A stretch of 39,022 nucleotides of DNA from Anaerolineae bacterium (lineage in GTDB: Bacteria; Chloroflexota; Anaerolineae; Aggregatilineales; UBA3940): NCBI GenBank assembly GCA_016926255.1, contig JAFGOY010000025.1, positions 1-39,022 on the forward strand. Direction: 5' to 3'. Within the stretch, counting starts at the first letter, position 1. Each line of letters starts with the position of its first letter. The notes under the pieces were generated by a model. The model was not told the origin of the DNA. It worked only from the letters and a program-made list of their open reading frames with translations, and ran no database searches. Made by a program: the position numbers and the translations under genes. Of the stretch, positions 20,486 to 39,022 are shown piece by piece.

Positions 20486-20520
20486 CAAAAAACCCCTTCG
20501 CCTGTAAGGACGAAAGGGGT
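20486..20520 (-). terminator. T-box terminator hairpin before valS
   Basis: On the minus strand ACCCCTTTCG and CGAAGGGGT pair with one bulged base, followed by seven Ts. It is the terminator half of the T-box switch. Uncharged tRNA-Val should favour the competing antiterminator made by the T-box sequence at 20527-20541. Confidence 0.9.
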
Positions 20521-20760
20521 GAGCTTCCGTGGTACCACCTTGCTTCCGATCATCTACCCTGACCGGCTCTCTATGCGCGATAACGGGCGCAACCCGAAAC
20601 GCGCCTACTGGCTCTGCAGTTTTCAGCGCATTGGCTCCTGAGCGACCTTCGGCGGGGGGTCAGTGGGGGCTTTCAGCCTGTGGCCCGACCTTCTCTACCT
20701 GATACCTGCGGTTTAATCGAAACTTCCGCCGCCTACTCCTCTCAGTCATCGCCTGTTTGA
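20486..20760 (-). promoter_or_regulatory. T-box riboswitch (Val) controlling valS
   Basis: A roughly 270-base leader read leftward. It has the stem I AGTAG-type 5' element (GAGAGGAGTAG near 20735), a specifier loop with GAA-G-GTC, the AGAGAGCCGG element of stem III, and the conserved T-box AAGGTGGTACCACGG at 20527-20541, then the terminator. The specifier GTC (20644-20646) is a valine codon, spaced one base after GAA as in glyQS-type T-boxes. T-boxes bind uncharged tRNA by codon-anticodon pairing and by its free 3' end, and let transcription continue. Confidence 0.95.
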
Positions 20761-36979: not shown

Positions 36980-38689
36980 CTAGACTTCGTTGATAAACGT
37001 AAAGATCATCGGGCGGCGCTTGAGTTCCGAATAGAAATACTTACCAAGCTGTTTCTCGATCTTTCGCCGGATAGTGCGCTGCGATGTGTCACCATCGCTG
37101 GTCAGGACGTCGATGATTACATCCTGAGCGCCATCCATCAACCCCTGGGCTTCGCGCAAATATACGAATCCGCGTGAGATGAATTCCGGCTCGCCGATGA
37201 TCTGGCGGGTGTCCCGGTCGAGCGTCAGGTTGGCGATGACGAAGCCATCGCGCCCCAGCAGTTCCCGGTCACGCAGCACAATCGGCCCGATATCCCCGAC
37301 ACCCGTGCCATCGACAAAAACGTACCCGCCGGGTATCCGCTCACCAACTTCCATCGAGTCTGCGGTGAATGTCAGCATGGTGCCGTTTTCGACCACAGCG
37401 ATATTCTCCGGCGGAATGCCCAGGTCAACCGCCATCTTCCGGTGCTGGTGAAGGTGCCGAAGCTCCCCGTGTACGGGGACCATGAACTTTGGCCGTATCA
37501 TGTTGATCATCAGCTTCATTTCTTCCTGAGCAGCATGCCCGGAGACATGCACCGGGGCAATAGGATCGTAGATCACCTCGGCCCCGCGCTGGATCAGCTT
37601 ATTGATGGTACGATAGACCATTTCTTCATTGCCCGGAATGGGGTGGGAAGAGAGGATGATCGTGTCGTCCTCTTCGACTTCAATATCATTGTGCTGTCCG
37701 GTCGATAAACGCCCCAGCCCGGCTAACGGTTCCCCTTGAGCGCCGGTGGTCATGATGACAACCTTGTGATTCGGTAGGTTGTTCGCCGCGCCAATTTCGA
37801 CCACCTGAGAGGAGGGGATATCAAGATAGCCGAGAGAACGTGCTAATTTCACGTTTTCAACCATGCTGTACCCCTGGACGGCGATCTTTCTCCCGTGCCG
37901 CTGGGCAGCATTTGCTACCTGCTGAACACGCGAGATGAGCGAAGCAAACGTCGCAACGATGATCCGCCCTGGAGCTTTCACAAAGATATCGTCAAGTGCC
38001 TCGTCGATCACCGACTCGGAGGTCGTCCAACCTGGGACATCAGCATTGGTACTGTCGGCAAACAACGCCAGAACGCCGCGCTGCGAGAAATCTGTCAGCT
38101 TACCGAAATCGGTCGGCCAGTTATCGACCGGGGTATGGTCGATCTTGTAGTCGGAAGTATGGACAACCAGCCCAACCGGGGTCGTGATCCCCAGCCCGAC
38201 ACTGTCCGGAATGCTGTGACAAACATGGAAAAACTCGACCAGGAACGGCCCCATTTTGATCCTGTCGCCTGCCTGGATGGTAACCAGGGTTACCTGATCG
38301 AGAAGGTGGGCATTGTCGAGCTTGACTTCCAGCAGGCCGCGCGTCATGGCGGTTGCATAGACCGGCGCATGTACATGCTCCATCACATGAGCAATCGCGC
38401 CGGTATGATCTTCATGTCCATGCGTGATGATAACCCCTCTGATGGTATCGAGTCGATCCATGATGTAGGCGAAATCGGGAATGATCAGGTCAATACCGAG
38501 CATGTCGTTATCAGGGAACATAATGCCGGTATCAATGATGATCGAATCATGTGACGTTCTGGTCACATATTCCATGATCATCATGTTTTTCCCAATTTCC
38601 CCCAGGCCCCCCAGGGGAACTACTCGTAAAAACTCGTCAGGTGGTTTTTTTTCACTGTATTCGTTCTTTTTCGTCTTACCTTTCGACAC
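36980..38689 (-). CDS. rnj: Ribonuclease J
   Basis: A 569-aa beta-CASP metallo-beta-lactamase RNase, with 5'-to-3' exo- and endonuclease activity in mRNA decay and rRNA maturation. The zinc site is H90-G-H-E-D-H95. VHTSDYKID, HTGEP-like AQGEPLAGL, HVSGHAAQEE and FMVPVHGELRHL complete the site, followed by a C-terminal dimerisation domain (FFY/RRPMI end). The N-terminus is Lys-rich. The start is GTG at 38689 with AGAGGA 10 bases upstream. The leader contains a strong terminator 38 bases upstream of the start (38727-38761), suggesting attenuation or an independent small RNA. Confidence 0.95.
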   Translation of the reverse strand: MSKGKTKKNEYSEKKPPDEFLRVVPLGGLGEIGKNMMIMEYVTRTSHDSIIIDTGIMFPDNDMLGIDLIIPDFAYIMDRLDTIRGVIITHGHEDHTGAIAHVMEHVHAPVYATAMTRGLLEVKLDNAHLLDQVTLVTIQAGDRIKMGPFLVEFFHVCHSIPDSVGLGITTPVGLVVHTSDYKIDHTPVDNWPTDFGKLTDFSQRGVLALFADSTNADVPGWTTSESVIDEALDDIFVKAPGRIIVATFASLISRVQQVANAAQRHGRKIAVQGYSMVENVKLARSLGYLDIPSSQVVEIGAANNLPNHKVVIMTTGAQGEPLAGLGRLSTGQHNDIEVEEDDTIILSSHPIPGNEEMVYRTINKLIQRGAEVIYDPIAPVHVSGHAAQEEMKLMINMIRPKFMVPVHGELRHLHQHRKMAVDLGIPPENIAVVENGTMLTFTADSMEVGERIPGGYVFVDGTGVGDIGPIVLRDRELLGRDGFVIANLTLDRDTRQIIGEPEFISRGFVYLREAQGLMDGAQDVIIDVLTSDGDTSQRTIRRKIEKQLGKYFYSELKRRPMIFTFINEV

Positions 38690-38883
38690 TACTATTTTTT
38701 CCTCTTAAATCTACTATCGTACTGTTAAAAAAAGGGCTTGAGAGGTTCCATCTCAAGCCCTAAAGTTTCTAATTGAGTTTGTCTGGTTTTGTAATTGTGT
38801 TAATCTGCAACAGATTATTTCCAGCTAAAAATCTCAGATAGCATTCAGGCTAACGCAATGGTTACCAACACTCTCGTTTATTG
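38690..38883 (-). ncRNA. RNase J leader or terminated small RNA (candidate)
   Basis: The 333 bases right of rnj contain no convincing gene. A leftward promoter (38890-38919) would start a transcript near 38883. About 125 bases on it meets a terminator at 38727-38761, before the rnj start. Within it TAATCTG/CAGATTA (7 bp, 3-base loop, about 38803-38819) forms a hairpin. The product is either a premature-termination leader for rnj or a small RNA of about 150 bases. Confidence 0.4.
38727..38761 (-). terminator. Strong intrinsic terminator upstream of rnj
   Basis: AGGGCTTGAGA and TCTCAAGCCCT form an 11-bp perfect stem with a 7-base loop. On the minus strand it is followed by seven Ts. It stands 38 bases before the rnj GTG and so inside any transcript starting at the 38890-38919 promoter. 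Confidence 0.85.
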
Positions 38884-38889
38884 CCCATA

Positions 38890-38919
38890 AGTTTAGCACA
38901 TTGTATGGATAAAAAACAA
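38890..38919 (-). promoter_or_regulatory. Candidate promoter for the rnj leader
   Basis: On the minus strand TTGTTT, an 18-base spacer and TAAACT preceded by TG-C (extended -10). The -35 falls in the T-tract of the terminator at 38905-38941. Confidence 0.45.
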
Positions 38920-38941
38920 CGCACCCAGAAATGTGGGGTGC
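38905..38941 (-). terminator. Terminator of an upstream leftward gene beyond the window
   Basis: GCACCC and GGGTGC pair over a 9-base loop and on the minus strand are followed by GTTGTTTTTT. A second hairpin, GCATTTC/GAAATGC, adjoins at about 38940-38964. It probably ends a leftward gene lying right of the window. Confidence 0.6.
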
Positions 38942-39022
38942 ATTTCACTTCAGTGCGGAAATGCGATAGGCTAAGGCATCCTGAAGCAGAAAGTGATGCC
39001 AGATGCCAAACAAACGGGAAGA

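Follow-up and report, generated by a model that had tools for sequence, protein, structure and literature searches.

The sequence ahead of rnj, the gene for RNase J, is best read as a cis-acting transcription attenuator with premature termination, a reading that we hold with moderate confidence. The gene lies near the end of the window (the whole 39,022-nucleotide stretch of DNA analysed here, from an uncultured Anaerolineae bacterium), on the minus strand, and the stretch in front of it would be the 5' leader of its mRNA. Transcription would begin near 38884, a functional leader RNA would be made, and the polymerase would then meet an intrinsic terminator ahead of the rnj ribosome-binding site. 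Part of the polymerases would stop there and release an RNA of about 155 nt, and RNase J would be produced only from read-through. The read-through fraction would most likely be tuned to match RNase J output to need. In many bacteria bulk mRNA decay is controlled by RNase J, and to our knowledge it is hardly known how the level of the enzyme is set.

The rnj gene, its predicted promoter and the leader terminator

The open reading frame at 38689-36980 (minus strand, 569 amino acids, GTG start at 38689) is a genuine RNase J. It matches the TIGR00649 profile with 570.6 bits against a cut-off of 400, and its identity is 67-73% to the rnj products from six of the other seven genomes in its family and 62% to the remaining one. 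The nearest named rnj, from an Anaerolineae metagenome-assembled genome, has 73% identity. A Shine-Dalgarno sequence, AAGAGG, is located at 38701-38706 (minus strand).

The predicted rnj promoter (38890-38919, minus strand) consists of the -35-like TTGTTT at 38919-38914, an 18-nt spacer and the extended -10 element TGC-TAAACT at 38898-38890, from which the start site is predicted near 38884. This promoter was not flagged by the sigma-70 scan (3/6 and 4/6 matches); the prediction is backed by the TG extension and by the conservation of the -10 element in relatives. The -10 is seen as TAAACT, TACAAT or TACACT in most same-family genomes, and examples upstream of the relatives' rnj are GCTAAACT, TGCTACAAT and TGGTACAAT.

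The predicted start site is followed by an untranslated leader of about 122 nt (38762-38884, minus strand) and then by the intrinsic terminator at 38727-38761 (minus strand). The stem-loop of the terminator, 38761-38733, reads AGGGCTTGAGA-TGGAACC-TCTCAAGCCCT, with an 11-bp stem, a 7-nt loop and a folding energy of -17.9 kcal/mol. It is more stable than 200 of 200 shuffled sequences (mean -6.7 kcal/mol, z -4.2), and leader and terminator folded together reach z -2.1. Seven Ts follow at 38733-38727, the first of which sits within the stem. In a scan for consensus terminators, 38761-38727 was the only strong one in the last 3 kb of the window, and judged by sequence and energy the leader terminator is real. 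The sequence-only reading, which had described an extended -10 promoter, some 125 bases of sequence and an 11-bp stem with seven Ts before rnj, is thus borne out at these positions. Its distance of 38 bases from there to the rnj ribosome-binding site fits the interval between the T-run and the start codon and not that to the binding site, as the Shine-Dalgarno sequence starts 26 nt past the stem and the GTG lies 43 nt past it. A promoter, an untranslated leader and an intrinsic terminator before the ribosome-binding site of the same gene form the layout of a cis-acting attenuator.

Upstream of the promoter there is a second terminator-like hairpin (38918-38944, minus strand) with a 9-bp stem, -11.9 kcal/mol and the tail GTTTTTT at 38917-38911. 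Its T-tract overlaps the rnj -35 element TTGTTT, and the hairpin is probably the end of an upstream transcript. The window is one entire contig of an 82-contig assembly and the contig ends 78 bases beyond this hairpin (38944), which leaves the gene that precedes rnj out of sight. At 38940-38961 the sequence TTTCCGCACTGAAGTGAAATGC is found, with a single near-copy (two mismatches) elsewhere in the genome, at G000:C2:29418-29439; it may be a regulator site or a chance similarity.

Conservation of the hairpin and selection on the leader

The comparison of rnj leaders in related genomes, proposed by the sequence-only reading as a check, supports the terminator as a part of the rnj leader. The same-family sample comprises eight genomes with rnj and a readable leader, the window and seven relatives. 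A hairpin of at most -11.6 kcal/mol with at least four Ts in the next eight bases was found before the start codon in all eight leaders, which are not fully independent because L008 and L009 belong to the same genus, g2. In the window's own genome, a similar criterion (-11 kcal/mol, four Ts) lets through 14 of the 54 divergent gaps and 33 of the 80 tandem ones; with the stricter criterion (-14 kcal/mol, five Ts), which the window copy also passes, the number of divergent gaps falls to 4 of 54. One gene in the divergent-gap list is valS with its T-box. A fast shuffle test on the last 230 nt, using a crude energy rule, gave terminator-like signals below 0.05 in 6/8 leaders of the family, with L008 scored on another hairpin; we place no weight on it. 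L055 and the contig of G007 are apparently one and the same.

The genes upstream of rnj vary across the family and, identified by eye, include murD, a GntR-type regulator and Wzz-like proteins. Since they differ between genomes and are divergent in four of them (L004, L007, L008 and L009), the terminator is not theirs and belongs to the rnj leader. This bears on the idea that the hairpin insulates rnj from an upstream transcript and that the true rnj promoter lies between the terminator and the GTG. A weak -10-like match, TACGAT at 38721-38716, would suit such a promoter. However, besides the divergent upstream genes, the upstream unit of the window seems already terminated at 38944-38911. The distance from hairpin to rnj is about 25-160 nt across the family, and most relatives leave some 25-45 nt to the start codon, where no promoter is conserved. 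We therefore regard insulation as very improbable.

The exact core GGGCTTGAG-N5-17-CTCA-N0-2-GCCC was found at rnj in three genera. Outside rnj, the pattern has a single match in nine genomes, in L146, where it seems to fall inside a coding region; the reversed pattern, used as a control, also has one match in the nine genomes. A generic or repeated terminator was rejected, as the rnj core motif has no repeat in the genome.

L004, L005 and L006 have weak T-tracts, which means that the hairpin is kept better than the quality of the terminator. This is what would be expected if the hairpin acted post-transcriptionally, as a barrier to a 5'-3' exonuclease or as a landing structure near the ribosome-binding site (an RNase J sensor), its resemblance to a terminator being secondary. 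Other families of the order, which keep hairpins beside or around the rnj ribosome-binding site without strong T-tracts, would fit as well. On the other hand, five to seven consecutive Ts follow the hairpin in the window and in genera g2 and g6, and these would be needless for a barrier; we rate this explanation as rather improbable.

Selection on the leader can be seen in the g2 pair (L008/L009). From promoter to hairpin the two leaders are 86.3% identical (139 aligned bases). Identity is 88.9% for the hairpin and its tail and only 49% in the 200 nt ahead of the promoter, which are essentially unalignable. At fourfold-degenerate third positions this rnj pair has 42.8% identity (77/180), a figure that can be shifted by codon usage, and the amino acids are 85.5% identical. 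The excess of the leader over the fourfold sites indicates strong purifying selection on the leader itself, and the non-coding leader is about as conserved as the RNase J protein. In genus g15 of another family (f8), the roughly 245 nt before rnj are 77-97% identical against 44-81% at fourfold sites, with the leader above the fourfold sites in 10/10 pairs and a smallest excess of 1.4 points. Further pairs were mixed, with an excess in L038/L039, none in L027/L028 and values near background in distant pairs, and the lineages compared are few.

When whole leaders were aligned with MAFFT across the genera of the window's family, nothing was alignable except segments resembling the promoter and the hairpin, and for L007 and L012 the hairpin was put in the wrong place. 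The sequence-only reading had offered either an attenuation switch or a separate small RNA. If the RNA of about 155 nt were the product of a separate gene, it would work in trans on other mRNAs and rnj would merely lie downstream or be reached by read-through, as the dcw cluster does behind UpsM (PMC5089854). An own promoter and terminator and the strong selection on the g2 leader would agree with this. Against it, only promoter and hairpin can be aligned across genera, so there is no family-wide seed, and rnj always follows within about 25-160 nt, without a conserved promoter after the terminator. We give a separate small RNA gene little credence. The hairpin goes with rnj in 8/8 genomes, including the four whose upstream gene is divergent, and the g2 leader is under selection. 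An attenuator is the better of the two options; for the proposed switch, no antiterminator signal above shuffles was seen.

Alternative folds and the proposed regulation of termination

A switch requires two states, that is, mutually exclusive folds. Complementarity of the leader to the 5' arm of the terminator was at chance in the eight leaders compared with shuffles (Fisher p 0.70), and 5'-arm pairing probability and duplex energy gave no antiterminator signal against dinucleotide shuffles. In the window leader, the antiterminated fold has -25.6 kcal/mol compared with -36.8 kcal/mol with the terminator, no better than chance. The terminator is well supported by sequence, but because the antiterminator does no better than chance the case for regulation comes down to leader conservation and precedent.

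In the g2 leaders, a truncated transcript is predicted to form a helix between GCUCA.CCU and the 5' arm of the terminator. In the complete leader, GCUC pairs with an upstream GAGC instead and the terminator forms. At column 51 a single substitution pairs in both states, in a comparison of two sequences only. These alternative pairings are suggestive of the 1:2, 2:3, 3:4 layout of classical attenuators, again from two sequences. The window leader also contains an 8-codon frame, GTG TTG GTA ACC ATT GCG TTA GCC TGA, at 38871-38845 (minus strand) with a weak Shine-Dalgarno-like CGAGAG. The frame is rich in Val, Leu, Thr and Ile codons, and inspection of the relatives by eye revealed no counterpart.

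Searched against Rfam, the rnj leader had no match at gathering score, and 38500-39022 had only chance-level matches at E up to 5. A T-box (RF00230) was rejected for the rnj leader, as none matched in 38500-39022 at that E-value. TGGAACC in the terminator loop was likewise dismissed as a T-box sign, as it does not lie inside an antiterminator. The positive control for this kind of search was the leader of valS (valine--tRNA ligase, start 20447), whose T-box at 20503-20758 (minus strand) scores 82.2 bits; because Rfam sets the gathering score at 93, a default scan misses it. The valS leader ends in the terminator CCCTTTCGTCCTTACAGGCGAAGGGG-TTTTTT, 45 nt ahead of valS. It resembles the rnj leader in that a leader and an intrinsic terminator lie upstream of the gene; the rnj leader differs in lacking a T-box match (E up to 5), and rnj is not related to aminoacyl-tRNA. 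As the valS leader has the same order of promoter, leader, terminator and gene, the organism very likely uses attenuators.

Termination could also be fixed and unregulated, the terminator holding rnj at a constant fraction of promoter output without any switch. The antiterminator signal that does not rise above shuffles would be explained in this way, as would the lack of aptamer-like sequence conserved between genera and of an Rfam match. However, the whole g2 leader is 86% identical against 43% at fourfold sites, which a passive spacer would not need. We consider fixed attenuation unlikely, if the least unlikely of these alternatives. Under regulated attenuation, which we prefer, termination would take place in vivo and would be subject to control.

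Precedents and other rnj leaders of the order

The analogy to autoregulated RNase E and RNase III genes drawn in the sequence-only reading is apt, and there are closer precedents. In the Synechocystis rne leader, premature termination falls from 95.9% to 65.3% under UV (PMC10989929). The rne 5' UTR mediates RNase E feedback, with termination inferred from transcript ratios and a U-rich site that is cleaved by RNase E (PMC10989929). Like rnj of the window, rne is a main RNase gene with a long leader, and most of its transcription is inferred to stop before the open reading frame, with stress raising read-through. It encodes RNase E in a cyanobacterium, whereas the window has a clear intrinsic terminator before RNase J. 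For rnj of H. pylori, in which RNase J forms a degradosome with RhpA, there is evidence of negative autoregulation via the 5' UTR (PMC5874925). The gene is shared with the window, and the involvement of the 5' UTR would be too; H. pylori belongs to a different phylum, and the passages on this feedback describe no terminator-based attenuation (PMC5874925).

UpsM is a 5'-UTR small RNA of the Rhodobacter dcw cluster, whose cleavage needs RNase E and Hfq and which probably acts in trans (PMC5089854). It has a promoter, a leader with a Rho-independent terminator and an important downstream gene in common with the window, and termination gives a small RNA, as it would in the window. The gene and the phylum are different, and cleavage dependent on RNase E and Hfq and probable action in trans are features of UpsM. 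The 5' UTR stem-loop of E. coli rne and the leader of rnc are further RNase genes under the control of leader structure (PMC3997798), but unlike the window rnj they act by mRNA decay and cleavage, without a terminator. The RNase genes that a 2013 review gives as autoregulated include rne, pnp and rnc but not rnj. The literature search, with most subscription papers outside its reach, turned up no account of an rnj leader with a terminator. The nearest precedents are Synechocystis rne and H. pylori rnj and, for a terminated 5'-UTR RNA, UpsM.

Roughly 100 other rnj leaders from across the order were also read. These leaders are elaborate and long, and their architecture differs by family, with the terminator in the family of the window. 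In genus g30 of family f2 (L123-L142) an extended -10, where found, mostly sits some 196 nt ahead of the ATG. A CCCG/CGGG hairpin lies just before the Shine-Dalgarno sequence, and a mid-leader hairpin occurs as CGCGCC/GGCGCG and CATGCC/GGCATG. RNAalifold on the g30 leaders gave almost no covariation term and one misaligned arm. In genera g16 and g24 of the same family (L104-L122) the ribosome-binding site is split, with AAAGGA, a stable hairpin, roughly 7-14 nt and then the ATG. A nearer Shine-Dalgarno sequence is almost never present in these leaders (absent from 8/8 in g16 and 10/11 in g24). Larger versions of the split site were seen in L051 and L053 of family f7. In each of the ten family f8 loci scanned (L019, L026, L032, L036 and L043-L048), rnj is closely preceded by a tRNA-Cys (GCA) gene. 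Because other families have other leader architectures, control of rnj does not depend on a terminator; the leaders of the order are compatible with a general control of RNase J through its leader.

The leader is probably part of a feedback control of RNase J, and the cell probably uses it to set the amount of the enzyme. High activity of RNase J or its degradosome would lead to termination or to decay of the leader, and at low activity rnj would be transcribed. That RNase J is itself the regulator of termination is possible, though we would sooner expect otherwise. More tentatively, and with a small chance of being right, RNase J or its degradosome may set the read-through of the polymerase, the 5'-3' exonuclease engaging its own nascent leader co-transcriptionally. 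The various structured leaders that rnj has in the order, with a terminator, a hairpin between Shine-Dalgarno sequence and AUG, a hairpin at the ribosome-binding site or a linkage to tRNA-Cys, might then be lineage-specific solutions to that feedback.

A conserved leader of this kind in Chloroflexota, with its terminator, would add RNase J to the genes controlled by premature termination. The several distinct leader designs within one order offer concrete cases for asking whether RNase J senses its own nascent message.
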